This document shows positions 2,368 through 42,260 of a DNA stretch of 64,000 bases, piece by piece. A program made the translations under genes and the position numbers. The stretch is from Opitutaceae bacterium (lineage in GTDB: Bacteria > Verrucomicrobiota > Verrucomicrobiia > Opitutales > Opitutaceae). The stretch is from NCBI GenBank assembly GCA_027485815.1, contig JAIXQE010000072.1, forward strand, positions 1 through 64,000, in the 5' to 3' direction. The notes beneath the pieces are model-generated. The model was given only the letters and a program-made list of their open reading frames with translations, searched no databases and had not been told where the DNA came from. The stretch's first letter is position 1, and each line of letters opens with the position of its first letter.

Positions 2368-4722
2368 TCAGCGGGAAGGGGACGGGGGAGCAGAGTCCCG
2401 CTTGGAGCGCCAGAGCCACCGCGCCATCGCGGGCATCACCAAGATGGCCCCGGCCATGTTGACCGTGAACATGAAGGTCAGCAGGAGGCCCATGTCCGCT
2501 TGGAACTTGAGGTCGGAAAAAACCCAGGTGCTGACCCCGATCGCGAGCGTCAACCCGGTGAACACCACGGCCGCGCCGGCGTCCTTGAATCCGCAGAAGA
2601 GGGCCTCCTCGAAGGTGGCCCCCGCCTTCAGTTCCGCGTGCAGGCGCGCGAAGATGTAGATGCCGTAGTCGACGCCGATCCCGGCCCCGAGGGCCACGAC
2701 CGGGAGCGTGGACGGCTTCAGGCCGATATCGAGGGCGACCATCACCACGTAGCCGAGGTAGCTGACGATCGCGAGCGGGGTCACGATGCAGAGGGCGGCG
2801 CGGACCGACCGGAAGGCGATGAGGCAGAGCGCGATGACCGAACCGAAAACCCAGTAGAGGATGGGCTTCTCCGCGGCGGCGACGACTTCGTTGGTGGCGG
2901 CCATCACCCCGGCGTTGCCGCTGGCGAGGCGGAACACCGCCTGCGGCGAATCGTGACGCGCGGCGAACTCCCGCACCGCCGTGGTCACCTCCGTGAGTGT
3001 CTCCGCGCGGTGGTCGCGCAGGAAGATCAGGACCGGCAACACCGAGGAATTCGCGTTCAGCAGCCCGGTCGAGGTCTCGACGGGAGCGACGGCCTGCGCG
3101 AGGGCGTCGCGGTTGCGGGGCAAGATCCGCCACTTGAGCGAACCCTCGCAAAACCCCGCATTCACGCCCTTGGCGACCCCGGCGAGCGACACGACGGACT
3201 GCACGCCCGGCAGTTCCCGCATCCGCCCCTCGAACTCATCGAGCAGCGTCATCACCCCGTGGTCGACCCCGGCATCCGGCACGGTCTCGACGATCACGCT
3301 GAGCAGGTCCACCCCGATGGAGAACTTGCTCGCGATCAGCTGGCTGTCGCGGTTGTAGCGCGAATCCGGCCGGAGCTCGGGCACGCCGGCCTGGGTGTCG
3401 CCGATGCGCACCTCCTTGGAGAAGTGGAAGGCCCAGGCGCCGATCGCGAGGCTGACGAGCGTGATGGCGGCCGCCGGAGCGGGGGTCAGGGCGCGCGCGA
3501 CCCGGCCCCAGGTCGCCTCGCCGCGCAGGCGCCGCGTGGCGACCCAGTCGGCGTAGGAGGGGGGCAGGCGCAGGTAGGACAGCAGCAGGGGCAGGAGGAA
3601 AAAGTTCGTCAGCGTGATCACGCTCACCCCAAGGCTCGCGATCAGCGCGAGTTCCTGGATGGTCGGGATCGGGATCACCATGATGGTGAAGAAACCGACG
3701 GTATCCGTCAGCAGGGCGACGATGCCCGGTCCGATCAGCTGGCTGAACGCCGCGCGCGCGGCCGTGGGGCCGTCCTGGCCTTTGAACACCTCGTTGCGGA
3801 AGGTGCAGATCTTCTGCACGCCGTGACTCACCCCGATCGCGAACACCAGGAACGGCACGAGGATCGAGAACAGGTCCACCCCCAGGCCGAGGGCGGCGAC
3901 GATCCCCAGTTGCCAGATGACCGCCACCAGGGAGCACACGATGGGGGCCGCGGCCAGTTTCCAGCGGCCGGCGTAGTTCCAGACCAGCAGCATCGTGACG
4001 ATCAGGGCGGCGGCGAACATCAGGCGGATGTTGTCCGCCGCGGCGGTCACATCCCCGACGATCTGGGCGAACCCGATGATGTGCACGGTGACGCGCCCGG
4101 CGGTGGCGGCGGCCACGCCCTCGCGGATGCGCTCCAGCCCGGCGGCCACCGCGGCGTAATCGACGCGTTCCCCATTCGCCGGGTTGGTCTCGAGGAGTTG
4201 GGCACTGACGACCGCGGCGGTGAAGTCGTGGGCCACCAGTTGCCCGTGGCGGCCTGACTTCAGGATATTCTCGCGCACGCGGGCGAAGGCGGCCGGCGTG
4301 GGCTGGAAATCCGCCGGAATCACGTTCCCGCCCGCGAAGCCGTCCTCGATCACCTCGATGAAACGGACATTCGGGGTGAAGAGGGACTGCACCTGCGGAC
4401 GGTCGACCGCGGGGAGGAAGGTCACCTCGTCCGTGACCTTGCGCAGCTGGGCGAAGAACTCGGGGTTGAAGATGTCCCCCTCGCGGGCGACGAGGGCGAC
4501 CAGAATCCGGTTGGCGCCCCCGAAGGCTGCCTGGTGCTTGACGAACGTCTGGATGTACGGGTGCCCACGGGGCAGCGACTTGTCGAAGCTGGCATCGACG
4601 CGGACGCCGAGCGCCAGCCAGAGCATCCCGGCGGTCAACGCCGAGAAGAGGAGCATCAGCGGAGTCCGATGACGGAACATCCAAACCGTGAAACGATCGA
4701 GGCGCGAGGGGCCCGGGGTCAT
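2368..4722 (-). CDS. MMPL/RND-superfamily inner-membrane transporter
   Basis: The 784-residue protein is an RND-superfamily permease of the MMPL/HpnN-like type. It has an N-terminal membrane anchor after about 20 residues, a large periplasmic loop, a cluster of membrane segments, a second periplasmic loop, and a second cluster. The second cluster contains GAGIGVDYGIYIF, where the intramembrane Asp is typical of proton-driven RND proteins. The equivalent first-half motif reads AIGVSHGVQK and lacks that Asp. Start and stop overlap the upstream propeller gene by 4 bp (ATGA), so translation is probably coupled. It is the last gene of a four-gene operon with a YCF48-like propeller, a DUF1329 protein and a DUF1302 barrel. 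I infer it energises movement of a hydrophobic substrate across the envelope; the substrate is unknown. Confidence 0.9.
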   Translation of the reverse strand: MTPGPSRLDRFTVWMFRHRTPLMLLFSALTAGMLWLALGVRVDASFDKSLPRGHPYIQTFVKHQAAFGGANRILVALVAREGDIFNPEFFAQLRKVTDEVTFLPAVDRPQVQSLFTPNVRFIEVIEDGFAGGNVIPADFQPTPAAFARVRENILKSGRHGQLVAHDFTAAVVSAQLLETNPANGERVDYAAVAAGLERIREGVAAATAGRVTVHIIGFAQIVGDVTAAADNIRLMFAAALIVTMLLVWNYAGRWKLAAAPIVCSLVAVIWQLGIVAALGLGVDLFSILVPFLVFAIGVSHGVQKICTFRNEVFKGQDGPTAARAAFSQLIGPGIVALLTDTVGFFTIMVIPIPTIQELALIASLGVSVITLTNFFLLPLLLSYLRLPPSYADWVATRRLRGEATWGRVARALTPAPAAAITLVSLAIGAWAFHFSKEVRIGDTQAGVPELRPDSRYNRDSQLIASKFSIGVDLLSVIVETVPDAGVDHGVMTLLDEFEGRMRELPGVQSVVSLAGVAKGVNAGFCEGSLKWRILPRNRDALAQAVAPVETSTGLLNANSSVLPVLIFLRDHRAETLTEVTTAVREFAARHDSPQAVFRLASGNAGVMAATNEVVAAAEKPILYWVFGSVIALCLIAFRSVRAALCIVTPLAIVSYLGYVVMVALDIGLKPSTLPVVALGAGIGVDYGIYIFARLHAELKAGATFEEALFCGFKDAGAAVVFTGLTLAIGVSTWVFSDLKFQADMGLLLTFMFTVNMAGAILVMPAMARWLWRSKRDSAPPSPSR

Positions 4723-5654
4723 GGCAGGGTCACGGGGGTCGCGCCCGCCTCGCCGAGGGCGAGGACGCTGCCGTCGGGCAACTCGAGGAGCTCTGCCACC
4801 GCGGTCGTCGGGGCGCGGGGCAGCAGGCTGAAGGTGCGCCCGTAGTCACGGCTGACGGCCAGCGCCCGGGGCGGTCCGCCGATCAGGATGAGATTCGAGC
4901 GCAGCCGGAGGGCGGTCGCGAGCAGGCCGACGACGGGAGGGGGCATTTCCTGCCACGTGTCCCCCTCGTCGGCGGAACGGTACAAGTGCCCCCGCAGGCC
5001 GTGGGCGATCAGGGTTCGCCCGTCGAGCGGAAGAACCCCGTGAAAGGATCCCTGATAGGGAGCCTGGAGCGGGGTCCAGTTTAACCCGGCGTCCCGGGAG
5101 CGGAGGAGCGTGCCCGCCTCGCCGGCCAAAAACAGTGTACCGCCGGCGCTGCGGCTGATCCGATTCAGGTGGGCGTCCCCGTCCCGCACCTGCCGGCGTT
5201 CCCACGTGGCGCCGCCGTCCCGCGTGGAAAGGTAAAGCCCGTAGGCTCCGACCGCGATGGCGTGGCGGGCATCGAGCGCGAGTACGTCAAGGAACGAATC
5301 CTGCAGGTTCTCCCCCTGGTGCTGCCGCGTCCACGTGGCGCCGCCATCCCGTGTCCCCAGCACCACGGCATCGTGACCGACGGCCCAGCCAATACCTGAG
5401 GCGCCTTCGGTCGCAGGGGGGGCGAGGGCAACCCCGGTGAGGGTTGCCCGGGTGGGGGAGTCGGCTCGCCGCCACCCGGCGGTGGGGGCGCGCGAAACCC
5501 AGATGCTGCCCCGCTCCCCGACCACGACGGCCAGGGACCCGCTGACCGCTCCGTCGAGGAGCAGGCCCCGGGGAAGAGACGGCTCCCCGGCGGCCAGGGC
5601 CGCGGGGAGCAGACAGGCGGCGACCCGGGCCGCGAGAGAACCGTGCGAAGCCAT
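4719..5654 (-). CDS. YCF48-like/BNR-repeat beta-propeller protein, exported
   Basis: The 311-residue product begins with a signal-peptide-like segment (about residues 1-22, ending near ALAAG). It then shows repeated Asp-box motifs of the form S/T-x-D-x-G-x-T-W: GTRDGGATW, STRDGGATW, RSRDAGLNW, RSADEGDTW and SRDYGRTF. This is the pattern of YCF48/BNR-type beta-propellers, which usually act as assembly or scaffold factors. The ATG at 5654 was chosen because it lies 7 bp after the DUF1329 stop and gives a signal peptide; the frame stays open upstream but there runs antisense through DUF1329. Its stop overlaps the MMPL permease start. I infer a periplasmic scaffold that links the permease to the DUF1329 and DUF1302 proteins. 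Confidence 0.85.
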   Translation of the reverse strand: MASHGSLAARVAACLLPAALAAGEPSLPRGLLLDGAVSGSLAVVVGERGSIWVSRAPTAGWRRADSPTRATLTGVALAPPATEGASGIGWAVGHDAVVLGTRDGGATWTRQHQGENLQDSFLDVLALDARHAIAVGAYGLYLSTRDGGATWERRQVRDGDAHLNRISRSAGGTLFLAGEAGTLLRSRDAGLNWTPLQAPYQGSFHGVLPLDGRTLIAHGLRGHLYRSADEGDTWQEMPPPVVGLLATALRLRSNLILIGGPPRALAVSRDYGRTFSLLPRAPTTAVAELLELPDGSVLALGEAGATPVTLP

Positions 5655-5661
5655 CCCGGCG

Positions 5662-7014
5662 TCAGCGGACGCCGTCGCGCCGCAGGGCCTCGGGGTTGAA
5701 ATCGGCCGGCGTGCGTTTGATGCCGAAATCGTACATCCGGTTCTCGTTATCGAGGCCGATCGCCAGATAACGACCGTTCTGCAGGTCGTGGTGCACCTCG
5801 AGGGTGCTCCAGAAGGCCTGGACGTCGTAGTAGTTGATGCAGTGGGCCTCGGAGACGCGCCAGAGCTGGCCGCGGCCGTCGTACTGGTCGGCCGCGAGGA
5901 TCTGCCATGAATCCTCATCGATGTACAAGGTGCGGCGGCTGTACAGGTGGGAGGTGCCGGGCTTCAGCTTGGCGTCGACGACCCAGACCCGGTGCAGCTC
6001 GTGGCGGGTCAGGTCGGCGTTGACGTGGAGCGGTTTCAGGATCTCTCCCGCCTTCACGCCCTTGGCGTGCAGCTTGTAGGAGTTGTAGGGGACGATCATC
6101 TCCTTCTTGCCGACGAGGGTCCACTCGTAGCGGTCGGGCGCGCCGTTGAACATGTCGAACTGGTCGGCGGTCCGCTGGCCGTCGGCGGCGGTGCCGGGGT
6201 TGTCGTAGGCCACGTTGGGCGCGCGGGTGACGCGGCGGCGGCCGGCGTTGTAGACCCAGGCGCGGCGGGGCTCCTTGACCTGATCCATCGTTTCCTGCGC
6301 CAGCAGGATGGTGCCGGCGAGGCGGGCCGGGGCGGTGACGGCCTGCTTGAAATAGATCAGGGTGTTGGAGGACTCGAGTTCCTTGGTGGTGATGTCGGGG
6401 CGCGTGTAATTAAAGAGGAACTCATCCTCGAACTTCACGAGCTGGAAGCCGCCGCCGCGCTCGACCGCGGCCTGGTCGATGTAACGGGTCGCGGCGACGC
6501 CGCGGAAGCGGGTGAGGGAGTTCCACAGCACCTCGAGCCCGTTCTGCGGGAGGGGGAAGGGGACGCCGACCGTCGCCCCGGCGATGCCGTTGCCGCCGGC
6601 GACGAGGGTGGCGGCGGTGGCGTTCTGCCGGGTGGCGTCATAGACCCGCTGCGGGTTGGACGCGCTGCGGCGGGTGGGGTAGACGGTCAGCTTGTACGTC
6701 GGGTAGGCCTGCAGCAGGGCCAGCTGGCCGGGGGTGAGCTGGGCCTGGTACTGGGCCGCGTTGGCCGCGGTCACGGTGAAGCGCGGCTGATCCCCCGCGA
6801 ACGGGTCCGGGTGGTGCATCCCGGGCTGGTAGCCGGCGGGGGGCGTGGTGATGCCGCCGGTCCAAGCCGGGATCGTGCCGTCGGCGTTGGCCTTGGCTTC
6901 GGCGCCAAGGGGGGTGAGTTCCCGGCCGAGGCGCGCGGCGTCGGCGGCGGAGACGGCCGCGCCGGCGGCACCAGCGGTGGCCGCCAGGAGGAGGACGGAG
7001 GAGAGGACGTTCAT
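5662..7014 (-). CDS. DUF1329 family protein (LolA/LppX-like fold), exported
   Basis: The 450-residue protein has a short signal peptide (MNVLSSVLLLAATAGAAGA) followed by features of DUF1329: the early segment ELTPLGAEAKANADGTIPAW, the central block KEPRRAWVYNAGRRRVTRAP, and a C-terminal region on converting a precursor (SRRTLYIDEDSWQILAADQY). DUF1329 proteins are predicted periplasmic or outer-membrane carriers with a fold like the lipoprotein carrier LolA. The gene sits 18 bp downstream of the DUF1302 barrel gene and 7 bp upstream of the propeller gene. I infer that it shuttles a hydrophobic ligand between the inner-membrane RND permease and the outer-membrane barrel. No catalytic motif is visible. 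Confidence 0.9.
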   Translation of the reverse strand: MNVLSSVLLLAATAGAAGAAVSAADAARLGRELTPLGAEAKANADGTIPAWTGGITTPPAGYQPGMHHPDPFAGDQPRFTVTAANAAQYQAQLTPGQLALLQAYPTYKLTVYPTRRSASNPQRVYDATRQNATAATLVAGGNGIAGATVGVPFPLPQNGLEVLWNSLTRFRGVAATRYIDQAAVERGGGFQLVKFEDEFLFNYTRPDITTKELESSNTLIYFKQAVTAPARLAGTILLAQETMDQVKEPRRAWVYNAGRRRVTRAPNVAYDNPGTAADGQRTADQFDMFNGAPDRYEWTLVGKKEMIVPYNSYKLHAKGVKAGEILKPLHVNADLTRHELHRVWVVDAKLKPGTSHLYSRRTLYIDEDSWQILAADQYDGRGQLWRVSEAHCINYYDVQAFWSTLEVHHDLQNGRYLAIGLDNENRMYDFGIKRTPADFNPEALRRDGVR

Positions 7015-7032
7015 GGGACGGGGGCCTTGGGG

Positions 7033-8982
7033 TTAGAAGGAGTACTTGAGGGTGGTCGCGACGTAGTCGCGGTCCGAGAAGAGGTTGAACTTGCCGGCGC
7101 CGGTGAAGTTCACGTAGCGCGCCTCGAAGGACCAGGCGTTGCGGTAAGTGAACTCGACCGCGACGTTCACGCTCTTGCGCCCGGCGATGAGATTCCCGAG
7201 CGGGAGCGGGGTGACGCCCCGGACGTCGTGCGTGAAGGCCACCGTGGGCTGGAGGTTCACGTTCGGCAGCACGTTGTTGTAGTCGAGCCGCGCGAGGACC
7301 TGGTAGCCCCAGGAGAAGCGGTCGGCGAAGCCGTCCGCCGCGGTGGCGGGCACCTGCGGGAAGCCGGCCGTGTTCATGAAGGACTGGGAGCCGCCGGTGA
7401 AGGTCGCGGGACCATCGTAGCGGAGGACGTCCTTGGACGGCAGGTTGGCCCAGACGCCGCCGGCCTCGCCGAGGACGGTGAGCTGCTGGGCGCCGAGGGT
7501 GGGCCCGAAGACCTTGGTCAGCGTCGACTGGGCGGTCCAGACCCGGTGGCGGCGGTAGCCGCTGATCTCGCGGCCGTACTGGCCGAGGTAGTTGCCGAGC
7601 TGGTTGGCGGCGGCGAACTGCGGCGCGAGGGAGGAGAGGGTAGCGAAGAGCACCTCGACGTCGTCAACCTGCAGCGGGACGTCGTTCTTCAGCGAGACCT
7701 CGCCCTGCCAGGAGACGCCGGAACCGCCGAGCGACGTATTGAAGCTCAGGCCGAAGAGGCTCAGGTCCTCGGCGTACTCCGTGAAGTACCGGCCGGAGGC
7801 CGCCGCGGTCAGGAGGGCGATCTGGCGGGCGCCGGCGATGGCGGCCTGAACCTGGGCGCTCTGCAGGGTGGCGATTTCGACGGGCGTCAGGGTGGTCGGC
7901 GCGAGGGAGGACTTCACGATCATCTGGAAGATCGCGGCGGCCTGGGCGGAGGCCTGCGCGGCCGGCAAGCCCCCGCGAAGGAAGGCGGCGGTCAGCGGAC
8001 CGGTCAGGTTGGTGTCGATCGGCGTGGTCGGGGTCCGCGCGCTGATGACGGGCGAGCGGCTGTTGTAGCGGGCGTAGTACAGGCCAAACTCGGTGTTGTT
8101 GATCCCCGGGGCGAGGATTCGGGTGGAGACGCCGAACTGGTTGAAGTTGCCGGCGTCCCGGTCCTCGGCGCGCGAGATGCCGCCGATGGTGCTGCCTTGG
8201 TCGGCGATGCTGCCGAAGCCGAGCCAGACCGTGCGGCCGCCGCGGGTCGCGAAGTCGTTGGTCGAGAAGTAGGTGCCGGCGGGCTCGAGCTCGTTCCGGC
8301 GGAATTCCAGCAGCCAGAAGGGCTCCACCGTGATCTCCGGCGTGAGGCCGATGGAGGCCTTCACCATGTTCACCGGGAGCAGCGCTTCCTTCAGCTCGGA
8401 ACCGGGCACCCGCAGCTTGGAGAGGTCGGCCGCGTTGACCACGTTGATCCCGTTGGGGATGAAGGTGCTCTCGCCGAGGCTGAGGACCTGCCGTCCGATC
8501 CGCAGGTCGAAGGGCAGGCCGCCGGCGACGTCCGCCTTCACGCGACCGTAGAGGTCGAGCAGCTGCGCACCCTTCACGGTGCGATCCTTCGCCTGGTCCG
8601 ACAGCGGCGTGCGCGCCGTCTCGTCGGCCTTCAGGTCGTTGTACCAGTAGCCGCGGGCCAGCGCGCCGAAGTTCCCGTAGCGGACCTCGAGGTCGTGGTT
8701 GCCCTTGAGCAACTGGGAGACCCAGCCCTTGGCGTAGTTGAGGTTGCCGTCATCGCTGTTGACGGAGTTCTGGGTGCCGGTGACCCCCTGGAAGGTGCTC
8801 GTGATGCCGTATTGGCTGCGGTCCGGGTTCTGCAGCCGGTAGAGACCGCCGAAGGAGAGCGTCGAGTCGAAGCTCACCTTGAGTTCGCCTTCGGAGAGCT
8901 GAAGGGCGGAGGCGGACGGCAGCGCGGCGGCGAGGCCGAGGACGAGACCGGAGAGGATCCGGCGGGACGGGGGCAGGTTCAT
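7033..8982 (-). CDS. DUF1302 family outer-membrane beta-barrel protein
   Basis: The 649-residue product starts with a clear signal peptide (MNLPPSRRILSGLVLGLAA, cleavage near ASA). It contains many short amphipathic, aromatic-rich strands such as FDSTLSFGGLYRLQNPDRSQ and EFGLYYARYNSRSP. It ends in Phe (TLKYSF), the usual C-terminal signature of outer-membrane barrels inserted by BamA. The family is DUF1302. The ATG at 8982 was chosen for the signal peptide; the frame remains open far upstream, but that portion is low-complexity and antisense to the dimethylformamidase-like gene. It is the first gene of the four-gene envelope operon and is divergent from that gene across 204 bp, so the operon promoter should lie there. 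Confidence 0.9.
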   Translation of the reverse strand: MNLPPSRRILSGLVLGLAAALPSASALQLSEGELKVSFDSTLSFGGLYRLQNPDRSQYGITSTFQGVTGTQNSVNSDDGNLNYAKGWVSQLLKGNHDLEVRYGNFGALARGYWYNDLKADETARTPLSDQAKDRTVKGAQLLDLYGRVKADVAGGLPFDLRIGRQVLSLGESTFIPNGINVVNAADLSKLRVPGSELKEALLPVNMVKASIGLTPEITVEPFWLLEFRRNELEPAGTYFSTNDFATRGGRTVWLGFGSIADQGSTIGGISRAEDRDAGNFNQFGVSTRILAPGINNTEFGLYYARYNSRSPVISARTPTTPIDTNLTGPLTAAFLRGGLPAAQASAQAAAIFQMIVKSSLAPTTLTPVEIATLQSAQVQAAIAGARQIALLTAAASGRYFTEYAEDLSLFGLSFNTSLGGSGVSWQGEVSLKNDVPLQVDDVEVLFATLSSLAPQFAAANQLGNYLGQYGREISGYRRHRVWTAQSTLTKVFGPTLGAQQLTVLGEAGGVWANLPSKDVLRYDGPATFTGGSQSFMNTAGFPQVPATAADGFADRFSWGYQVLARLDYNNVLPNVNLQPTVAFTHDVRGVTPLPLGNLIAGRKSVNVAVEFTYRNAWSFEARYVNFTGAGKFNLFSDRDYVATTLKYSF

Positions 8983-22439: not shown

Positions 22440-25400
22440 TCAACCGCGCGCCCGGCGCAACCGCCGGAGGTGGGGGGCCGTTGGGCTGCCCTTGCAGCGG
22501 AGCAGGCCCTCCGGGTCGCCGGCGTAGACGATCTCGCCCCCCGCGGGTCCGCCGCCGGGCCCCAGTTCGACGACGTGGTCCGCCTCGAGGATCACATCGA
22601 GGTGGTGTTCGATGACGACCACGGTGTGTCCCTGGTCCACCAGCGCATGGAGCACGCGGATCAGTTTTTCGCAGTCGCTGAGGTGGAGGCCGATGGTCGG
22701 CTCCTCCAGCAGGTAGAGGTTCCGCGCCGGCACCCCGCGGGCGCGTTCGCGGCGGCCGGCGCTGCCCTGCGCCAGTTCGGTCACCAGCTTGAGGCGCTGC
22801 GCCTCGCCGCCCGAGAGCGTGTTGGAGCTCTGGCCGAGGGCGAGGTAACCGAGCCCGCAATCGACCATCAAGCGGCAGACCTCGGCCAGTTCCGCGTGGA
22901 AGGCGAACTCGCGGGCGGCCTCCTCGAACGTGAGGTTGAGCACCGCTCCGATGTCGCGCCCTTGCCAGGTGACGTCCTTCAGTTCCGGGCCGTAGCGGGA
23001 GCCCTGGCACGTGTCGCAGGGGAGGAAGGCGTCCGGCAGGAACGCCATCTCGAGCCGGATTCGGCCGGCGCCCTCGCAGGCCGGGCAGCGGCCGCCCGCG
23101 GTGTTGAAGGAGAAGCGCGAGGCGGTGTAGCCGCGGAGCCGCGCCTCGGGCAACTGGGCGAAGAACGCGCGGATCAGGTCGAGGATCCCGAGGTAGGTGG
23201 CCGGCGTGGAGCGCGGGGTCTGCCCGATCGGGGCCTGGTCGACCTCCACCACCCGGCGGAATCCCGCGGCGCCGGTGAGCGAGGCAAAGGGCGGGCGCCC
23301 CAGCTCCCCGGGGGATCCGCCGTCCTGCACGAACTCCCGGCCCGAGAGGCGATCGCGGCGGCCGGCGATGGCCTGGGAGGCCGCGGGGTGCAGGAGATCG
23401 CGGATGAGGCTGGATTTCCCGGCCCCGCTCGGCCCGGCGACCACGGTCAGGCGGCCGATCGGCAGCCGCAGGCGCACGTCGCGCAGGTTGCGGAAGCGGA
23501 CGCCATCGAGGGTCATCCACGCGCCCCGCGCGTTCGGCGCCGGCAGGGGGCGCCGGCTCCCGCGCAGCGGATGGGCGATGCCCGTGGCGAGGTAACGACC
23601 GGTGAGGGAGCGCGGGTTCGCGCAGACCTCCGCGGGCGTGCCGCAGGCGAGGAGTTCGCCGCCGTGGATGCCCGCGCCCGGCCCGAGGTCGATGATCCGG
23701 TCCGCCCGCTGCATCAGCTCGTCGTCGTGCTCGACGACCAGCACCGTGTTGCCCTTGTCCCGCAGGCCCTCGAGGGTGGCGATCAGGCGCTGGTTGTCCC
23801 CCGCGTGCAGCCCGATGCTGGGTTCGTCGAGGACGTAAAGCACGCCCGTGAGGTTGGAACCGAGCTGCGCTGCGAGGCGGATCCGCTGCTGCTCGCCGCC
23901 GGAGAGCGTCGCGGTGGGGCGGTCGAGGGTGAGGTAGCCGAGGCCCACGCGTTCGAGGAACCGAAGCCGTTCCGAGATCTCCGGGCGGACTTCGGCGAGG
24001 ACGGCGCGCCCGCGGGCGTCGAGATCGAGCGCGGCCAGCAGCCGCAGGAGTTCGGCCGGCGTGCGCCGGAGCAGTTCGGGCAGCGAGAGGGCGGGCCGGC
24101 CACCGCGGAACGGCAGGCGCACGGCCCGGCTGATCCGGTTCAGCCGCGCGCCGCCGCAGTCCGGGCACGGTTGACCCTCCGCCGCGAGGTCGCCCGCGTC
24201 CTCAAGCCCGAGTTCCCGCAGCAGGCGCGCCGGGTCCTCCTCGCCGTCCTCCGCCGGCTCCAGCATCCACGGCAGGATCCGGCCGTGCCCGCGGCACGCG
24301 GGACACCAGCCGCGCGGGGAGTTGAACGAGAAGTGCTTCGGCTCCAGTTCGGGGAAGGATTCCCCGGTGGCGGCGTCGGTGCGGGTGGTCGAGAACCAGG
24401 CAAGCACCCCGTCCCGCGGCGTCAGCAGGAAGCAGGCGCCGCGGCCCAGCGCGAGCGCCGTGTCGAGCGCGGCGGCCGGCGCCGGCGACCCGTCCGCTCG
24501 AAGGTCGGCGACGACGACTTCAATGTCGTGTTCCCGGTAGCGGTCCAGCCGGGTGAAGGCCTCCACCGGCAGCAGTTGTCCGTCGGCCCGCATCAGCGCG
24601 TAGCCTTGGTCGGCGATCCAGTCCGCGATTGGCTGATGGTGGCCCTTGCGTCCGCGGATCAGCGGCGCGCACAGGTAAAGATGCCGGGCCCGCCGGGCCG
24701 CGGGATGCGTGGTCATCACCTTGCGCAGCAGCGCGCGCAGGGCCGTCCGGGCAAGGGGGCGGACGGGGCGTCCGGACTCCGGGTGATGCTGCACTCCGGC
24801 GCGGGCGTAGAGCAGGCGCAGGTGCTGCGCGACCTCGGTGATGGTGGCGACGGTCGACTTGCGGGAACCGCGGGTCATCCGCTGCTCGATCGCCACGGTG
24901 GGCGGGATGCCGGTGAGACCCCCGATCGCCGGCCGCGGCAGCTGCTCCACGAACTGCCGCGCGTAGGGGGACATCGACTCCATGAAGCGCCGCTGCCCCT
25001 CCGCGAACAGGATGTCGAAGGCGAGGGTGGACTTGCCGGAGCCGGATACTCCGGTGACCACGGTCAGCTGCCGGTGGGGCAGCGCGAGGGTCAGGTCCTT
25101 GAGGTTGTTCTCCCTCGCTCCGGTGAGCGTCAGTTCGGCCGGGCGGAGCACCGCGGGCGGCGCCGGCTCCGCCAGCAGGTCTCCCCGGGAAACGGTCTGA
25201 CTCCCCGGCTCAAGGGCGGCGCGCAGGAAGGGGGCCGTCACGGTGTCGCGGCGCGAGACGTCCTCCGGCGTGCCCTCCGCCATGATCCGCCCGCCCGCGG
25301 CGCCCGCCTCCGGGCCCACCTCGAGGATCCAGTCGGCCGCCCGCAGGACCTCGGTGTGGTGCTCGACGACGACGACGGAGTTGCCCTGATCCACCAAGGT

Positions 25401-28070
25401 CTGGAGGACCGCGAGCAGCCGGCCGACATCGTGCCGATGCAGCCCGGTGGTGGGTTCGTCGAGCAGCAGCAGCGCCGGGGCCTGGCCCGCGTCGCCGCGG
25501 AAGGCCGCGAGGTGGCGCACGAGCTTGAGGCGCTGCGCCTCGCCGCCGCTCAGCGTGTTGAGGGGTTGCCCGAGGGGCAGGTAGCCGAGCCCGACCGCCT
25601 CCAGGCCGGACAGCCGGCGGTGGATCGCCGGTTGGGAGGCGAAGACCGCGAGGGCCTCCGCCACGGTCAGGTCGAGGAGTTCGGCGATCGAGTGTCCGGC
25701 CCAGCGCACCGCCAGCACCTCCGGCTTGAAGCGGCGGGTCCCGCAGGCCGGGCAGGGCACGAAGACGTCCGACAAAAACTGCATCTCGACGCGTTCGTGG
25801 CCAAGGCCCTGGCATTGGTCGCACCGGCCCTCGCCGCCGTTGAACGAGAACGCCGAGGCCCCGAGCCCGGCGGAGCGCGCATCCGGCGTCGCCGCGTAGA
25901 GTTCCCGCACGAGGTCCCAGGCCTCGACGTAGAGCACCGGGGTGGAACGCGGGGTGCGGCTCAGCGGGGACTGGTCCACGAGCACGATCTCCCCGACCGG
26001 CTGGTCGAGGGTCAGCTGGCGGATCACCGCGGGCTCCTCCGCCGGGAGGCCGCGGTGGCGGAGCAGGCCCTGGTGCAACGCGGCGTCGAGGAGGGTGGAC
26101 TTGCCCGAGCCCGAGACGCCGCTGAGGCACACGAGGCGGCCGAGCGGCACGCTGACGTCCAGGTCCCGCAGGTTGTGCCGCGTGATGCCCTCCAGGCGCA
26201 GGCGCGGTTGGGTGTCGGGCACGGGCCGGCGGGGCGGTGGCGCCGTTCCGCCGGCCCGGCCGGAGAGGTAGCGTCCCGTGAGGCACTCGGGGTGGACGAG
26301 CATTTCCGGCACGGAGCCCTGAAAGACGATCTGGCCGCCCCGCCGGCCGGGCTCCGGCCCGACCTCGATGACCTGGTCCGCGGCGCGGATCACGGCCTCG
26401 TCGTGTTCGACGACCACGACCGTGTTGCCCGCGTCGACCAGCCGGCGGATCACGCCGAGCAGCCGATGCACGTCGCGCGGATGCAGGCCGACGCTGGGTT
26501 CATCGAGGACGAACAGCGTGTCGACCAGCGAGGTGCCGAGGCAGGAGGTGAGGTTGACCCGTGCGACCTCGCCCCCGGACAGCGTGCGGGAGGGGCGGTC
26601 GAGCGTGAGGTGGCCTAGCCCGACCTCTTCCAGGTAGCGCAGCCGGGTCAGCATCGCCGCCCGGGCGGCGCCGGCGGCGTCCGCGGGTTCGGGTGCTGCC
26701 CCGGGGGCTTCCGCCAGCAGGGCCCGGAGCTCCGTGACGGACATCCGGTAGAGCTCGGGCAGGGTGCGGCCGCGCCAGCGCCAGCAGAGGGCCTCGGGCT
26801 GGAGCCGCCCGCCGCCGCAGTCGGGGCAGGGCAGCGCCGCGCGGTAGCGGGACAGGAACACCCGCACGTGCATCTTGTAGGTGTTGCGTTCCAGCCAGCG
26901 GAAGAAGCCGCGCAGGCCGTACCACGCGTCGGCCCCGCCCGCCTCGTCGGCCCCCGGCTCGCCCTCGAGCACCCATTGCCGCTGGACGTCGCTGAGCCGG
27001 GAGAAGGGCACGTCAGTCGGCACGCCCCGGCGGCGGGCGCAGCGCAGCAGATCGCGTTTCGAGCCGCCGTAGACCTCGCTCTCCCAGCAGCGGATCGCGC
27101 CCTGGGCGAGGGAGAGGGACGGGTCGGGGATGGCGAGCGCGGGGTCGAGCTCGAGGATGCGGCCGAACCCGCGGCACCGCGGGCAGGCGCCCAGCGGCGA
27201 GTTGAAGGAGAACAGGGCCGGCGTGGCGGGCCGGAAGACCTGGCCCGTGGCGGGGGAACGCAACCCGCGGCAATAGCGCCCCGCGGAGACCAGGCGTCCC
27301 TCCTCCTCGGCGAACAACTCCAGTTCCCCGCGTCCGAAGTGGTACGCCTTTTCCACCGCCTCGAGGAACCGGGCGCGCTGATCGTCGGTCAGCGTCAGCC
27401 GGTCCTGCGCGACCACCAGCTGGTCGCCGTCGCCGAGCAAGGCGGGATCCGCCGCGAGGTCGGCCAGGCGCCGGGCCTCGTTTCCGCCCCCGGCGAGGGG
27501 CCGGAGCGCGCGCACATACCCCTGCGCCTGCAGGCCGCCGAGGATCTCCGCCCAGGTCAGGGCCGCCGGGCGGAGCACCCGGAAGGAGACCACGACGGGG
27601 CGTCGCGCCAGGCGGGCGCACGCCTGCTCCCAGACCGCGGGCGGATGGTCGTCGCGCACCGGTTCCCCCGTCGCGGGATCGATGCAGCCGGCGACCTGGC
27701 TGAACCAGACCTTCGCGTAGTCGGTCAGCTCGGTCATCGTCCCGACGGTGGAGCGGGAGGTGCGCACGGTGTTGGTCTGCTCGATCGCGATCGAGGGCCG
27801 GATGTTCTCCACCCGGTCCACCCGCGGCGCGGGCAGCAGCTCGAGGAACTGGCGCGTGTACGCGCTGAAGGTCTCCACGTAGCGGCGCTGGCCCTCCGCG
27901 TGCAGGGTGTCGAACACGAGGGAGGACTTGCCCGCGCCGCTCAGGCCGGTGACCACGACGAAGCGGCCGAGCGGCAGGTCGAGGTCGAAGCCCTGCAGGT
28001 TGTGCTGGCGGACGCCGCGCAGCCGGATGCATTCCGGGGCGGGACGGGAGGTGGGCGCGGAGGCGGGCAC
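22440..28070 (-). CDS. uvrA: Excinuclease ABC subunit A, tandemly duplicated (four ABC domains)
   Basis: UvrA finds DNA lesions and loads UvrB in nucleotide excision repair. A normal UvrA has about 940 residues and two ABC modules; this one has 1876 and four. Walker A motifs are GLSGAGKSS (residues 42-50), then GVSGSGKST near 653, GVSGSGKST near 1008 and GPSGAGKSS near 1548. Signatures LSGGE lie near 493, 840, 1388 and 1752, each followed by an LDEP- or LEEP-type Walker B. Zinc-finger pairs occur in both copies, including the C-terminal CDQCQGLG...CPAC and CPACEGAG...CDTC types. Each copy therefore looks complete. Similar double-length UvrA proteins are known, for example in Chlamydiae. No uvrB or uvrC is nearby. 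Confidence 0.97.
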   Translation of the reverse strand: MPASAPTSRPAPECIRLRGVRQHNLQGFDLDLPLGRFVVVTGLSGAGKSSLVFDTLHAEGQRRYVETFSAYTRQFLELLPAPRVDRVENIRPSIAIEQTNTVRTSRSTVGTMTELTDYAKVWFSQVAGCIDPATGEPVRDDHPPAVWEQACARLARRPVVVSFRVLRPAALTWAEILGGLQAQGYVRALRPLAGGGNEARRLADLAADPALLGDGDQLVVAQDRLTLTDDQRARFLEAVEKAYHFGRGELELFAEEEGRLVSAGRYCRGLRSPATGQVFRPATPALFSFNSPLGACPRCRGFGRILELDPALAIPDPSLSLAQGAIRCWESEVYGGSKRDLLRCARRRGVPTDVPFSRLSDVQRQWVLEGEPGADEAGGADAWYGLRGFFRWLERNTYKMHVRVFLSRYRAALPCPDCGGGRLQPEALCWRWRGRTLPELYRMSVTELRALLAEAPGAAPEPADAAGAARAAMLTRLRYLEEVGLGHLTLDRPSRTLSGGEVARVNLTSCLGTSLVDTLFVLDEPSVGLHPRDVHRLLGVIRRLVDAGNTVVVVEHDEAVIRAADQVIEVGPEPGRRGGQIVFQGSVPEMLVHPECLTGRYLSGRAGGTAPPPRRPVPDTQPRLRLEGITRHNLRDLDVSVPLGRLVCLSGVSGSGKSTLLDAALHQGLLRHRGLPAEEPAVIRQLTLDQPVGEIVLVDQSPLSRTPRSTPVLYVEAWDLVRELYAATPDARSAGLGASAFSFNGGEGRCDQCQGLGHERVEMQFLSDVFVPCPACGTRRFKPEVLAVRWAGHSIAELLDLTVAEALAVFASQPAIHRRLSGLEAVGLGYLPLGQPLNTLSGGEAQRLKLVRHLAAFRGDAGQAPALLLLDEPTTGLHRHDVGRLLAVLQTLVDQGNSVVVVEHHTEVLRAADWILEVGPEAGAAGGRIMAEGTPEDVSRRDTVTAPFLRAALEPGSQTVSRGDLLAEPAPPAVLRPAELTLTGARENNLKDLTLALPHRQLTVVTGVSGSGKSTLAFDILFAEGQRRFMESMSPYARQFVEQLPRPAIGGLTGIPPTVAIEQRMTRGSRKSTVATITEVAQHLRLLYARAGVQHHPESGRPVRPLARTALRALLRKVMTTHPAARRARHLYLCAPLIRGRKGHHQPIADWIADQGYALMRADGQLLPVEAFTRLDRYREHDIEVVVADLRADGSPAPAAALDTALALGRGACFLLTPRDGVLAWFSTTRTDAATGESFPELEPKHFSFNSPRGWCPACRGHGRILPWMLEPAEDGEEDPARLLRELGLEDAGDLAAEGQPCPDCGGARLNRISRAVRLPFRGGRPALSLPELLRRTPAELLRLLAALDLDARGRAVLAEVRPEISERLRFLERVGLGYLTLDRPTATLSGGEQQRIRLAAQLGSNLTGVLYVLDEPSIGLHAGDNQRLIATLEGLRDKGNTVLVVEHDDELMQRADRIIDLGPGAGIHGGELLACGTPAEVCANPRSLTGRYLATGIAHPLRGSRRPLPAPNARGAWMTLDGVRFRNLRDVRLRLPIGRLTVVAGPSGAGKSSLIRDLLHPAASQAIAGRRDRLSGREFVQDGGSPGELGRPPFASLTGAAGFRRVVEVDQAPIGQTPRSTPATYLGILDLIRAFFAQLPEARLRGYTASRFSFNTAGGRCPACEGAGRIRLEMAFLPDAFLPCDTCQGSRYGPELKDVTWQGRDIGAVLNLTFEEAAREFAFHAELAEVCRLMVDCGLGYLALGQSSNTLSGGEAQRLKLVTELAQGSAGRRERARGVPARNLYLLEEPTIGLHLSDCEKLIRVLHALVDQGHTVVVIEHHLDVILEADHVVELGPGGGPAGGEIVYAGDPEGLLRCKGSPTAPHLRRLRRARG

Positions 28071-36330: not shown

Positions 36331-36399
36331 GCCCGGCGGGCCCGAGATTACAAGTTGCGCCCGGGCCAACCGCGGTCAGCCTCGGTTATTTTCTTTCCC

Positions 36400-37521
36400 A
36401 TGCTGAAGAAGTTCCTTCTCCTGCTCACGGCGTTCGTGGGCGTCACGCTCGTGCTCGGTGCGGCCAAGGCGAACCAGATCAAGAAGCTGGCTGCTGCCCC
36501 GCGCACGATGCCGCCCGCAGGCGTGGCGGCGACCGCCGCCCGGAGCGAGGAATGGCGCTCGACCCTGCACTCGATCGGCACGCTCGCCCCCGTCGCTGGG
36601 ATGACCGTGGCCGCGGATGCGGATGGCATCGTGGTGCGGATCGCCGCCGAAAACGGAGCTGCGGTAAGGGCGGGCGACCTGCTGGTCGAACTGGACAGTT
36701 CGGTCGAGGTGGCGCAACGCGAGTCGGCTCGGGCCCGGGCAGAGCTGGCGCGCGTCAACATCACGCGGCAGGAGGAGCTTTGGCAGCGCAAGGCGATCGC
36801 GAAGGTAGAATACGACACCGCGGTGGCCGCCCGCAAGCAGGCCGAGGCGGATGTCGCGGCGCTCGACGCCGTGATCGCGAAGAAGCAGGTGCGGGCGCCC
36901 TTCGCGGGGCGGGCCGGCCTTCGGTTGGTCAACCCCGGCCAGTACGTGGGCCGCGGGGCGCCGCTGCTTCCGCTGCAGCAGTTGGATCCGATGTACGTGA
37001 ACTTCAGCATCCCGCAGCGGCACCTGCCCGACCTGGCGCTTGGCCGGCGGGTCGCGCTCCGCGTGGACGCCTTTCCGGACGCCGCCTACGCGGGGGAAAT
37101 CACGGCGATCAACGCCACGGTGGACGCGGCCACGCGCAACATCACCGTGCAGGCCACGGTGGCCAACCCGGGGGAGAAGCTGCGCGCCGGGATGTTCGTG
37201 CGGGTCGACGTCGAGTTGCCCGAGGCGATGCCGGTGATCGTGGTGCCGGCCACCGCGGTGGCCTACGCACCCTACGGCAACTCGGTCTTCATCGTGGAGA
37301 AGATGAAGGGGCCGGACGGTCAGGAGTACCTCGGCGTGAGGCAGCAGTTTGTCGAGGTCACCGCTCATCGCGGAGACCTCGTGGCGGTCAAGGGTGGGGT
37401 GAAGGCGGGTGAACAGGTGGTGACCGCGGGCGTCTTCAAGCTGCGCAACGGCGCTCCGGTGCAGGTCAACAACGCGGTCCAGCCGGCGGCGAGCGCCAAC
37501 CCGCGTCCGGCCAACTCCTGA
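36400..37521 (+). CDS. RND efflux membrane-fusion (periplasmic adaptor) subunit
   Basis: The 373-residue protein is an AcrA/MexE-like adaptor. It has a signal/anchor (MLKKFLLLLTAFVGVTLVLG), a biotinyl-lipoyl hairpin (VAADADGIVVRIAAENGAAV...DLLVELDS), a helical hairpin with RQEELWQRKAIAKVEYD, a second lipoyl half (VRAPFAGRAGLRLVNPGQYV), a beta-barrel and a membrane-proximal domain. No lipobox Cys is present, so the N-terminus is likely a membrane anchor rather than a lipid. It links the following RND pump to the TolC-like channel, with 20 bp to the pump gene. Confidence 0.93.
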   Translation: MLKKFLLLLTAFVGVTLVLGAAKANQIKKLAAAPRTMPPAGVAATAARSEEWRSTLHSIGTLAPVAGMTVAADADGIVVRIAAENGAAVRAGDLLVELDSSVEVAQRESARARAELARVNITRQEELWQRKAIAKVEYDTAVAARKQAEADVAALDAVIAKKQVRAPFAGRAGLRLVNPGQYVGRGAPLLPLQQLDPMYVNFSIPQRHLPDLALGRRVALRVDAFPDAAYAGEITAINATVDAATRNITVQATVANPGEKLRAGMFVRVDVELPEAMPVIVVPATAVAYAPYGNSVFIVEKMKGPDGQEYLGVRQQFVEVTAHRGDLVAVKGGVKAGEQVVTAGVFKLRNGAPVQVNNAVQPAASANPRPANS

Positions 37522-37541
37522 GGCCCGCCCCCCGCCCTCCG

Positions 37542-40500
37542 ATGCACGAGCGAAGCTTCACGGACCTGTTCATCCGCAAGCCGGTGGTGGCCCTCGTGGT
37601 CAACATCACGCTGCTGGTGCTTGGGATAGTCTCCTTCTACCAGCTGAACACGCGGCAGTACCCGCGCAGCGACAGCGCCGTGGTGAAGATCAGCACGGTC
37701 TACTTCGGCGCCAGCGCCGAGACCGTGCGCGGCTACATCACCACCCAGCTCGAGCGGGTGGTGGCCAGCGCGGACGGCATCGATTACATCGAGTCCGAGA
37801 GCCGGGCGGGCTTCAGCCTGATCAGCGTCTACCTGCGGCTGAATTACGACACGAACGCCGCGCTCGCGCAGATCAGCGCCAAGATCGACCAGGTCCGCAA
37901 TGAGCTGCCGCCGGAGTCCGAATCGCCGACCATCAGCGTCGAGACCAGCGACAACCAGTTCGCGTCGATGTACATCAGCTTCTACGGGGACCAGCTCGCG
38001 CCGAACCAGGTGACCGACTACCTGAACCGGATGGTGCAGCCGGCCCTGTCCTCGGTGAAGGGGGTGCAGCGGGCCGACATCCTGGGCGGCCGGGTGTTTG
38101 CGATGCGGGTCTGGCTCAAGCCCGACGCCCTCGCGGCCCACGGGATCAGCCCGGCCGAGGTGCGGCAGGCGCTCGCCACCAACAACGCGCTGGCGGCCGT
38201 CGGCTCCACCAAGGGCACGATGCTCACCATGAGCCTCGTCGCGAATACGGATCTCCGGAGCGCGGCCGAGTTCCGCGAACTGGTGGTCGCGCGCCGCGGC
38301 GACACCATCGTGCGCCTGGCCGACGTGGCCGACGTGGTCCTCGGTGCCGAAAGCTACGACGACGACGTCCGGTTCGCGGGCGAGAGCGCGACGTTCATGG
38401 GCATCTGGGTGCTCCCGACCGAGAGCACCGTGGAGGTGGTCAAGCGGGTGCGGGCGCTGCTGCCGACGATCGAGCGCGATCTCCCGGGCGGACTCCGGAT
38501 GCGCGTGGGCTACGACGCCACCAAGTACATCGACGACTCGCTCCGCGAGATCCTGCGCACCCTCGCCGAGACCCTTTTGATCGTCGCCGTGGTCATCTTC
38601 CTGTTCCTCGGCTCGTTCCGCTCCGTGCTCATCCCCCTGGTGGCGATGCCGCTCTCGCTGCTCGGCGCGCTCACGATGATGCTGGCCTTCGGCTTCACCA
38701 TCAACCTGCTCACCCTGCTCGCGGTGGTGCTCGCGGTCGGCATCGTGGTCGACGACGCGATCGTCGTGGTGGAGAACGTGGAGCGCCACATCCGCGCCGG
38801 CCAGACTCCCTTTGATGCCGCGCTGCTCGGCGCCCGCGAACTGGTCGGACCCGTGATCTCGATGACGATCACGCTGGCGGCCGTCTACGCCCCGATCGCG
38901 TTCCAGGGCGGCCTGACGGGAGCGCTCTTCCGCGAGTTCGCGCTGACCCTCGCCGGCGCGGTGGCCATCTCCGGCTTCGTTGCCCTGACCCTCTCCCCGA
39001 TGATGAGCGCCCATTTGCTGCGGGGCGGCGCGCACGAGGAGCGGGGAATGGTGGGCCTGACGAACCGACTCTTCGACCGCCTCCGGAATGCCTACGAAGG
39101 CGTCGTGGGCACGATGCTCTCCCTGCGCGCCGACCGGCGTCCGGCCTGGGCGCTCGCGGGTTGGTCCCTGATCGCCTGGCTGCCGCTCTGGCCCCTTGCG
39201 GTCGGGGTCGTCTGGCTACTCTTCGGTACGGCCGGGGTGAAGGCGGCCGCGGTGCCCGCCGCGCTTGGTCTGCTCGGGGCCAGTGTGGTGGGGGCGATTC
39301 TGGTCTTCGCCTTCGACCTCGCGCTCGGCCGCCGGTACCGCGCGGTGCAGTTTGTACTGGCGGGCTCGCTGCTCCTCACGGTGCTGCTGGCCCCCTTCTT
39401 CCAGTTCGCCCAGAGCGAACTGGCGCCCAAGGAGGACCAGGGCGTCGTCTTCAGCATTCTCGTCCCTTCGCCCACGGCGACCATCGAGCAGAACTCCCTC
39501 TACGCCCGTGAGGTGCAGAAAATCTACGAGTCGGTGCCCGAGTACGACGCCTCGTTTCAGGTCACGTCCGCCAACTTCGGCATCTCCGGGATGATCCTCA
39601 AACCGTGGTCGGAGCGTCGCCGGACCTCCGTTGAGATCGGGGATCTGCTCCAGGCGCCCGCGGCGGCGGTGGCGGGGGTGAACGTGATCGTGAACACCCC
39701 GGATCCCCTTCCCGCGGGCGGGCAGTTCCCGATCGAATTCGTGCTGCGCTCGACCGCCGATCACCGGGAGATGCTGGAGGTCGCCCAGCAGTTGGTGATC
39801 CACGCCAACACGCCGGAACCCGGCGGCGGTGGCCCGCCCGTGTTCTATTTCGCGGACAAGGACCTCAAGTTCGACCTGCCGCAGGCCGAGATCGAGATCG
39901 ACCGGGAGAAGGTTGCCGCGATGGGCCTGAGCCTTGTCGATGTGGCGCGGGACCTCGGCTCGATGTTGGGCGGCGGCTACGTCAATCGCTTCGTCAATGA
40001 CGGCCGCAGTTACCGGGTTATCCCGCAGGTGGAACGCGGGCAGCGGCTCAACGCGGACCAGTTGCTGAATTACCACATCCGCGGCCCCCAGGGTCAGTTG
40101 ATTCCGCTGAGCACGATCGCGTCGATTCGTGAGACGGTGCAGCCCCGGACCCTCAACCGCTTCCAGCAGCTGAACTCGGTCAAGATCACGGGCGTGGGAC
40201 CGAGCATCGACGCGGCGCTCCGGAAGCTCGAGGCGAAGGCGGCCGAGATCCTGCCGGCCGGTTACACGATCGATTACGGCGGTCAGTCGCGTCAGCTGCG
40301 CACGGAGGGCAAGGCGCTGGGCAAGGCGGCGATGCTCGCGGTGCTGCTTATCTTCCTGGTGCTGGCGGCGCAGTTCAACAGCTTCCGCGATCCCTTCATC
40401 ATCCTCCTCGGTTCGGTGCCGCTCGCGATCGTCGCGGCGATGCTGCCCGTCTTTCTCGGGGCGAGCTCGCTCAACATCTACTCCCAGATCGGGCTCATCA

Positions 40501-40835
40501 CCCTCGTGGGGCTCATCGCCAAGAACGGGATCCTGATCGTGGAGTTCGCCAACGGACTCCAGCGCGAGGGGGTGGCCAAGCTCGACGCGATCCGCCGCGC
40601 CGCCGCCACCCGCTTGCGGCCGGTGCTGATGACCTCCGCTGCCACGGTCTTCGGCCACCTGATGCTGATCTTCGTCAGCGGCCCCGGCGCCGCCTCGCGC
40701 AACAGCATCGGCTGGGTGCTGGTGGTCGGCATGGCGGTCGGTACGATCTTCACGCTCTTCGTCGTTCCCGCCTTCTACGCGCTGATCGCCCGCGAACTCA
40801 CGCCCCGACCGGCCGCGCCCGTCCCCTCCGCATGA
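37542..40835 (+). CDS. HAE1-type RND efflux permease with an extra hydrophobic hairpin
   Basis: This 1097-residue pump belongs to the AcrB/MexF-like HAE1 class, which uses proton motive force to export hydrophobic compounds. TM1 follows FIRKPVVALVVNI. The porter-domain sequences are typical, and the proton-relay pair lies in VGIVVDDAIVVVENVERH. The usual protein has about 1030-1050 residues. Here an insertion of about 65 residues lies between TM6 and TM7 (roughly residues 528-596). It holds two extra hydrophobic segments: AWALAGWSLIAWLPLWPLAV and the stretch around LLGASVVGAILVFAFDLALG. The gene overlaps the TolC-like gene by 4 bp. Substrate is unknown. Confidence 0.95.
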   Translation: MHERSFTDLFIRKPVVALVVNITLLVLGIVSFYQLNTRQYPRSDSAVVKISTVYFGASAETVRGYITTQLERVVASADGIDYIESESRAGFSLISVYLRLNYDTNAALAQISAKIDQVRNELPPESESPTISVETSDNQFASMYISFYGDQLAPNQVTDYLNRMVQPALSSVKGVQRADILGGRVFAMRVWLKPDALAAHGISPAEVRQALATNNALAAVGSTKGTMLTMSLVANTDLRSAAEFRELVVARRGDTIVRLADVADVVLGAESYDDDVRFAGESATFMGIWVLPTESTVEVVKRVRALLPTIERDLPGGLRMRVGYDATKYIDDSLREILRTLAETLLIVAVVIFLFLGSFRSVLIPLVAMPLSLLGALTMMLAFGFTINLLTLLAVVLAVGIVVDDAIVVVENVERHIRAGQTPFDAALLGARELVGPVISMTITLAAVYAPIAFQGGLTGALFREFALTLAGAVAISGFVALTLSPMMSAHLLRGGAHEERGMVGLTNRLFDRLRNAYEGVVGTMLSLRADRRPAWALAGWSLIAWLPLWPLAVGVVWLLFGTAGVKAAAVPAALGLLGASVVGAILVFAFDLALGRRYRAVQFVLAGSLLLTVLLAPFFQFAQSELAPKEDQGVVFSILVPSPTATIEQNSLYAREVQKIYESVPEYDASFQVTSANFGISGMILKPWSERRRTSVEIGDLLQAPAAAVAGVNVIVNTPDPLPAGGQFPIEFVLRSTADHREMLEVAQQLVIHANTPEPGGGGPPVFYFADKDLKFDLPQAEIEIDREKVAAMGLSLVDVARDLGSMLGGGYVNRFVNDGRSYRVIPQVERGQRLNADQLLNYHIRGPQGQLIPLSTIASIRETVQPRTLNRFQQLNSVKITGVGPSIDAALRKLEAKAAEILPAGYTIDYGGQSRQLRTEGKALGKAAMLAVLLIFLVLAAQFNSFRDPFIILLGSVPLAIVAAMLPVFLGASSLNIYSQIGLITLVGLIAKNGILIVEFANGLQREGVAKLDAIRRAAATRLRPVLMTSAATVFGHLMLIFVSGPGAASRNSIGWVLVVGMAVGTIFTLFVVPAFYALIARELTPRPAAPVPSA

Positions 40836-42166: not shown

Positions 42167-42260
42167 GCCGGGCTGGACGCCGCGGCGTCGGCGGGGCAGC
42201 TTGGGCCCCCGGGGAACCTTTGCCCGTTCCTGGTTGTCCCGCCCTCCTTTCCCTCGCCTG

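Follow-up and report, generated by a model that had tools for sequence, protein, structure and literature searches.

An Ame-type four-gene transporter cassette in a member of the Opitutaceae and the conserved residue pattern of its RND permease

The closest described counterpart of the locus discussed here is AmeABCD of Castellaniella defragrans, published in 2018 and proposed to export monoterpenes (PMC6394551). Deletion of ame led to poorer growth and tolerance on monoterpenes and to slightly more Nile Red in cells treated with carbonyl cyanide m-chlorophenyl hydrazone (CCCP); its pump, AmeD, belongs to a distinct HAE3 lineage of resistance-nodulation-division (RND) permeases, whose members are encoded in cassettes that keep this make-up and gene order (PMC6394551). 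The present analysis concerns a stretch of 64,000 nucleotides from an Opitutaceae bacterium (assembly GCA_027485815.1, contig JAIXQE010000072.1, positions 1 to 64,000; hereafter the window), in which positions 2368-8982 of the minus strand hold four genes, termed A, B, C and D, with spacings of 18 bp, 7 bp and a 4-bp overlap. These genes are an Ame-type transporter, a well-conserved machine of an already known type, and they are read here, with a probability of roughly 0.6, as a tetrapartite trans-envelope transporter for apolar, lipid-like molecules whose cargo most likely moves outwards.

Several other systems share parts of this design. In Pseudomonas putida, PP_0765/PP_0766 and PP_2018/PP_2019 are all four needed for growth on Tween 20, and the partners of the DUF1302 and DUF1329 proteins there are a multidrug efflux transporter and a protein of the periplasm, a make-up comparable to that of the window cassette; PP_0766 is predicted to contact PP_0765, and contacts are also predicted among PP_0766, PP_2018 and PP_2019 (PMC10866462). 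Unlike the window genes, these four appear from their numbers to lie at two separate loci (PMC10866462); PP_2018/PP_2019 are presumably homologues of C and D. The benzene degrader ORM2a highly expresses a ‘nanopod’ cluster encoding porin-like, DUF1329, YCF48-related and MMPL proteins where, in contrast to the window, genes for a universal stress protein and a hypothetical protein stand in between; the DUF1329 protein of ORM2a is a distant relative (21%) of that of Delftia, deletion of which impaired growth on phenanthrene, as cited in the same paper (PMC13101534). The Delftia nanopods themselves involve DUF1302 and DUF1329 proteins whose genes are adjacent in a phenanthrene cluster (PMC3110197), a DUF1302-DUF1329 pair is found in the phenol-hydroxylase cluster of a toluene degrader (PMC7012976), and a C28 alkane induces an MMPL protein with a LolA-like domain together with a neighbouring porin (PMC6304351).

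How does the window cassette compare? Its genes, of the DUF1302, DUF1329, YCF48-like and RND families, follow the A-B-C-D arrangement; families and order are those of AmeABCD, with lengths of 649, 450, 311 and 784 residues as against 605, 451, 316 and 787. Gene positions and Pfam matches (Table 1) thereby bear out the initial annotation, which had named these four envelope families, their coordinates and their spacing from the letters alone. By eye, the N-termini of A and C resemble signal peptides, and C is thus predicted to be exported; the product of B, which gives a second, weaker Pfam match to LolA_like (E 1.1e-8), is presumably periplasmic. AmeA was likened to OpcA (PMC6394551), whereas the A protein of the window matches porins, those of the OprD/Occ type best. 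The surroundings differ as well: Ame is part of a monoterpene island, and monoterpenes induce it (PMC6394551), whereas no genes of this kind flank the window cassette, and the host shows no beta-oxidation markers. In HAE1 systems of the AcrAB-TolC type, too, a single operon encodes an RND pump and its partners in the periplasm and the outer membrane. A canonical set of this kind (HlyD adaptor, AcrB-type RND pump and OEP) occupies window positions 36355-42166, separate from the cassette, whereas none of the four cassette proteins gives a Pfam match to an HlyD adaptor or a TolC-type OEP. With A predicted to be of porin type and B to have the LolA fold, a barrel stands in the cassette in place of the tunnel of AcrAB-TolC, and a carrier-like protein in place of its adaptor.

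Table 1. Positions of the cassette genes, of the conserved residues of the D permease (window coordinates) and of a smaller relative (locus coordinates). TM, transmembrane helix.
Feature	Position	Strand	Assignment	Match or conservation
Gene A	7033..8982	(-)	DUF1302 outer-membrane beta-barrel, AmeA-like, 649 aa	PF06980 E 6.6e-145
Gene B	5662..7014	(-)	DUF1329, AmeB-like, LolA-fold, 450 aa	PF07044 E 5e-156
Gene C	4719..5654	(-)	YCF48-like (PSII_BNR) propeller, AmeC-like, 311 aa	PF14870 E 1.5e-18
Gene D	2368..4722	(-)	HAE3/MMPL-type RND permease, AmeD-like, 784 aa	PF03176 E 1.4e-25
TM4 signature of D	3814..3828	(-)	S299-H300-x-x-Q303	identical in 94/94 rows
TM5 Asp340 of D	3703..3705	(-)	Asp340	92/94 rows; exceptions L032 (Gly), Vibrio plasmid (Asn)
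TM10 signature of D	2656..2670	(-)	D685-Y686-x-x-Y689	identical in 94/94 rows
Smaller relative	L135:200-4530; L136:3618-7966; L137:2851-7201		families scanned in L135 and L137; L136 from genome searches	

The evidence that the four genes belong together comes from 94 loci, namely the best 80 of 581 confirmed relatives of B (at least 594 stretches were matched) and 14 regions from genomes of the order. Since similarity was the basis for choosing the loci of B and D, the counts describe close relatives only and say nothing of how frequent the arrangement is among DUF1329 proteins at large. In 87 of the 94 (86 of 93 once a duplicate contig, L039 = L086, is set aside), all four genes stand on one strand as A-B-C-D, and neighbourhood by chance was therefore rejected. 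By record title or kinship, 45 of the ordered loci are verrucomicrobial and 42 are not (44 and 42 after deduplication); together they span Verrucomicrobiota, Pseudomonadota, Thermodesulfobacteriota, Myxococcota, Nitrospirota and Acidobacteriota. The seven loci without this order include five that are truncated at contig ends (L045, L056, L071, L074 and L091); the other two lie inside longer contigs, L120 showing B alone and L124 lacking D. Two loci, L095 and L097, are identical over the C-terminal 250 residues of B yet stem from different records. Across the 76 loci that remain once 11 of the 87 are excluded for length, pairwise protein distances of the four genes are correlated (r 0.85-0.92), and the mean identity between verrucomicrobial and other loci amounts to 59% for B, 52% for D, 41% for A and 35% for C. 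In a tree of B with 62 rows, which is arbitrarily rooted, unreliable for the long plasmid branches and served for taxon labels and for grouping the window, the window protein clusters with other Verrucomicrobiota. The four genes thus form a recurrent unit, which very probably works as one trans-envelope system for hydrophobic compounds.

This unit is not indivisible. When 13 plasmid regions were compared directly with the window proteins, the order A-B-C-D was found in seven (L139, L141, L143, L146, L148, L149 and L150); L145 has B-A-C-D, L147 (EbN1) has C-D-A-B by annotation, its A giving no match to the window A at E 1e-4, in L140 about 5 kb and a change of strand lie between A-B and C-D, L138 and L142 contain A-B without C-D within the region read, and L144 shows a partial C plus D without A-B. 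Apart from the swap of B and A in L145, the breaks fall between A-B and C-D, which argues for two modules, and the same division fits P. putida, where PP_0765/PP_0766 and PP_2018/PP_2019 are apart by their locus numbers (PMC10866462). One of the seven ordered regions, L148:204-7204 from a Pseudomonas aeruginosa plasmid record, has A and B unannotated, and its B matches in two pieces, which suggests a possibly broken gene; the record carries another DUF1329 gene close to its opposite end.

Across 132 sampled genomes of the order, a strong DUF1302 match (E < 1e-100) is present in 16 and a strong DUF1329 match (E < 1e-20) in 15, and close relatives of D (E < 1e-250) occur in exactly the 15 genomes with a strong B; G063, 81% complete, has a strong A at a contig start without a strong B or a close D. 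Of 288 genomes sampled from the phylum, 18 give a DUF1329 match at E 1e-20, of which 17, the window genome included, belong to the window's own family. The initial annotation had regarded DUF1302 and DUF1329 without the RND pump as an argument against a common machine. Within the order this argument finds no footing, all 15 genomes with a strong B having a close D; among the 13 plasmid regions, two carry A-B without C-D in the stretch read, one has the pairs apart and one has C-D without A-B. Weaker matches in further genomes of the order go mostly to a shorter relative, found in three genomes (Table 1), that combines a LolA_like protein, a DUF1302-like barrel of ~400 residues and an MMPL-type RND pump; a gene of 207 codons lies just upstream of it in L135, where it is of TetR type, and in L136. 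No YCF48-type match was obtained among seven proteins scanned from two of these three loci; the minimal core may consist of a pump, a carrier and a barrel. Two genomes of the order stand out in other ways: G013, of the same genus, has two full cassettes (G013:C22:147911-154792 and G013:C25:796024-802954), and G032 has only the 3' part of a D-like gene (G032:C1:510464-511330; 57% identity over residues 483-771) and no DUF1302 or DUF1329 match, probably a decayed cassette.

The best NCBIfam model for the permease D is TIGR00921 (HAE3; E 5.9e-43), although the score of 146.9 bits stays below the curated cut-off of 351.9, and it does not pass the models for HpnN (TIGR03480, 72 bits against 751.85; NF052374, 37.4 against 1100) or for the sterol transporter BstA (NF045600, 30.5 against 1400). 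Solved relatives by sequence are MmpL5, HpnN, MmpL3 and MmpL4. HpnN (PDB 5khn; E 6.5e-7) is an HAE3-type RND protein like D and works without such partner proteins (PMC6394551), whereas D is encoded together with A, B and C. It also differs in its presumed proton site, having GVDF in transmembrane helix 4 (TM4) and GVAF in TM10, an arrangement that D mirrors with GVSHG (residues 297-301), which has no Asp, in TM4 and GVDYG (residues 683-687), which has one, in TM10; the helix numbers derive from alignments and a crude hydropathy scan. In an alignment of 94 rows (the window, 82 loci with D longer than 740 residues and 11 plasmid proteins; 93 distinct), both signatures are without exception and the Asp of TM5 nearly so (Table 1), even though the rows include the EbN1 protein at 28% identity. 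Under a looser length limit (88 rows), D685 is missing from a single row, L050 (721 residues), in which the frame departs earlier. Plasmid homologues from ABCD cassettes thus have SHxxQ and DYxxY in common with the window protein. The asymmetry between the two halves of the pump, which had been pointed out at the outset as a specific oddity, is therefore real, yet it is a trait of the sampled lineage and not of this one protein. In MmpL pumps other than MmpL7, Asp/Tyr in TM4 and TM10 are held to be critical for proton coupling (PMC8427324); by analogy, D685-Y686 would probably be the proton-binding pair of D, and the site as a whole may be of a His-Asp-Tyr kind. The consulted parts of PMC6394551 make no mention of the TM4/TM10 pattern, none of the further papers listed by literature searches was recognised as dealing with the AmeD lineage, and a word search of PMC6463001 for transporters returned nothing.

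Predicted structures are in line with a carrier and a barrel. The AlphaFold2 model of B (pLDDT, its mean predicted confidence, 90.2) has a LolA fold at residues ~157-448 and superimposes on LolA3 of Porphyromonas gingivalis (9tp6; Z 22.3, root mean square deviation 2.4, 237 residues aligned), for which a hydrophobic groove is described (PMC13103446), and on the solved DUF1329 protein 4z48 (Z 20.0, 3.1, 237 aligned). It was the fold search that found these relatives; a sequence search of the PDB with B gave no usable match (best E 0.018). The fold is thus common to B and the lipoprotein carrier LolA, to which B adds an N-terminal part and a partner gene for an RND pump. The model of A (pLDDT 92.1) is a porin-type barrel, for which VIA-align places OprD/Occ-type porins, a BenF-like porin and the major outer membrane protein MOMP first (Z ~22-23, the Occ-type ones over 307-326 residues), with the exporter AlgE at Z ~21. 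Foldseek ranks general porins and MOMP first, at TM-scores of 0.3-0.4 by query length, so the OprD/Occ preference suggested by VIA-align for the predicted barrel is not exclusive.

How might such parts work together? D would reside in the inner membrane and, driven by the proton gradient, shift the substrate between this membrane and the periplasm, the protons possibly passing by Asp685/Tyr686 of TM10 facing His300 of TM4 and Asp340 of TM5. B would then ferry the substrate across the periplasm in its hydrophobic groove, instead of a sealed tunnel of the TolC type, A would be the gate in the outer membrane, and C could dock B onto D, a role of the propeller as scaffold that the initial annotation had proposed and that is suggested in print as well. 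That the four proteins form a complex, like the proton route, the direction and the cargo, is what we infer. In the host, the cargo would be an envelope lipid or hydrocarbon of its own making, or a harmful hydrophobic compound, moved outwards.

The preference for outward traffic stems from the host genome, which shows no usual route for burning fatty acids or alkanes. In this draft, no match was found to PF00441 or PF00725 at E 0.001 (14 control genomes gave matches in 9 and 7 cases, respectively), nor to PF02771, PF03349 or PF13243 at E 1e-10, that is, to acyl-CoA dehydrogenase, 3-hydroxyacyl-CoA dehydrogenase, FadL or hopene cyclase. These absences disfavour the uptake of fatty acids or alkanes as well as hopanoid transport; the latter was rejected as a candidate for the host, given the missing PF13243 match and the scores of D far below the cut-offs of the HpnN models. 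Across the order, PF13243 (squalene-hopene cyclase) is found in 2 of the 16 cassette genomes. Outward traffic or defence is thus a better guess for the host than uptake.

Several observations weigh against export. In real-time assays, Nile Red efflux was almost identical in the wild type and the ame mutant of Castellaniella (PMC6394551), and the pathway absences just listed come from a draft genome that is 97% complete and split into 232 contigs. Others of these observations speak directly for the strongest alternative, an uptake machine in which A would admit an apolar nutrient, B ferry it and D pull it to the inner membrane for catabolism. The P. putida homologues are required on Tween 20 (PMC10866462), and a Delftia strain deleted for its DUF1329 gene grows poorly on phenanthrene, as cited in PMC13101534. 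Several plasmid copies adjoin acyl-CoA, dearomatisation or meta-cleavage genes, and one region has aldehyde dehydrogenase and VOC-family genes, surroundings that fit uptake as well as efflux. (The initial annotation had placed such sets near lipid, terpene or steroid metabolism; the terpene part has a counterpart in print (PMC6394551), and aromatic and acyl-CoA neighbourhoods on several plasmids now join it.) In addition, the A protein, with Z ~23 to Occ and BenF-like porins, is no closer to the exporter AlgE than to uptake porins, and acyl-CoA dehydrogenases are enriched in genomes with the cassette (7 of 16 against 15 of 116, p 0.006, kinship uncorrected), so that other members may well import. 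For the host, however, uptake appears unlikely, though it is the most serious competitor of export: beyond the acyl-CoA dehydrogenase, 3-hydroxyacyl-CoA dehydrogenase and FadL that escape detection in its draft genome, PF02771 (E 1e-10) is absent from 9 of the 16 cassette genomes of the order, and no gene for the breakdown of fats or hydrocarbons was recognised among the few cassette neighbours scanned. FadL (PF03349), present in 2 of 16 cassette genomes and 31 of 116 others (p 0.36), allowed no conclusion.

A more specific proposal, which must be considered improbable, is that the cassette delivers a self-made lipid, such as a long-chain olefin of the Ole pathway, to the outer membrane. The host contains, at G000:C86:3289-6146 (L134), an OleC-type AMP-binding gene (604.5 bits, cut-off 478) followed side by side by a 3Beta_HSD-type gene, which are likely OleC and OleD and part of an olefin cluster. 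The idea finds some support in a reservoir study that reports oleABCD for Opitutae genomes and tables Opitutae-Tous-C8FEB (PMC5673642), from which L046, the closest relative among the loci listed (95% identity in B), derives, and in the LolA/LolB-like pair proposed for the pigment flexirubin in Bacteroidota (PMC11885536). OleC (NF006754, E 1e-100) is indeed present in 15 of the 16 cassette genomes, yet 90 of the 116 that lack the cassette have it too; being nearly universal in the order (105/132), it shows no significant association (p 0.19), and the olefin link by co-occurrence is statistically unsupported. The ole genes of the host, moreover, lie on a contig other than that of the cassette. 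Were this proposal nonetheless right, the Opitutaceae machine would be an envelope-building exporter of a self-made hydrocarbon by way of a LolA-type carrier, not a catabolic accessory, and its RND pump would have a proton site that is the mirror image of that of HpnN (His in TM4, Asp-Tyr in TM10), a combination to which we likewise assign little weight. Least probable of all is that the genes share an operon without forming one machine, as the A-B pairs of L138 and L142, the split in L140, the partial C plus D of L144, the lone B of L120 and the missing D of L124 might suggest, against which stand the strict A-B-C-D order in 87 of 94 loci and the joint requirement in P. putida despite pairs that are apart by locus numbers (PMC10866462).

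The surroundings of the cassette offer no further clue to a substrate. In Pfam scans of the neighbours, one flank has a RecN/SMC-type gene and the other a gene with a DMFA2_C domain, which is the nearest upstream of the cassette, a superoxide dismutase and a FUR-family gene; no obvious substrate gene was recognised among the few neighbours scanned, as the initial annotation had stated. A survey of conserved neighbours listed 60 clusters, among them the cassette genes and short frames that overlap. Of the ten clusters from which a representative was scanned, seven gave unrelated or housekeeping matches (UvrA-like, AI-2E transporter, DUF3108, glutamate dehydrogenase, two peptidases and dihydroorotate dehydrogenase) and three are without a match at E 1e-5, so conserved neighbours were rejected as a guide to the substrate. 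Elsewhere in the window, a protein of 970 residues with no Pfam match at E 1e-6 is encoded directly downstream of the HAE1 set (42201-45113), and at 46884-49109 an acyltransferase (PF01553) is fused to an AMP-binding domain, in a fashion that we take to resemble enzymes re-acylating lysophospholipids. A single reading frame of 1876 codons at 22440-28070 resembles, by eye, two tandem UvrA-type proteins.

What, then, is the significance of the Ame-type cassette in this order? Published work on Ame-type systems points in both directions, the Castellaniella study arguing for export (PMC6394551) and the P. putida study dealing with growth on a surfactant (PMC10866462). Members of the order that keep the whole cassette without detectable beta-oxidation markers naturally separate the two roles. 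The SHxxQ/DYxxY pattern, for its part, provides a sequence tag for this lineage of pumps and points to exact residues that may take part in energy coupling. The value of the cassette thus lies in its invariant residue pattern, combined with a host that may separate uptake from export.

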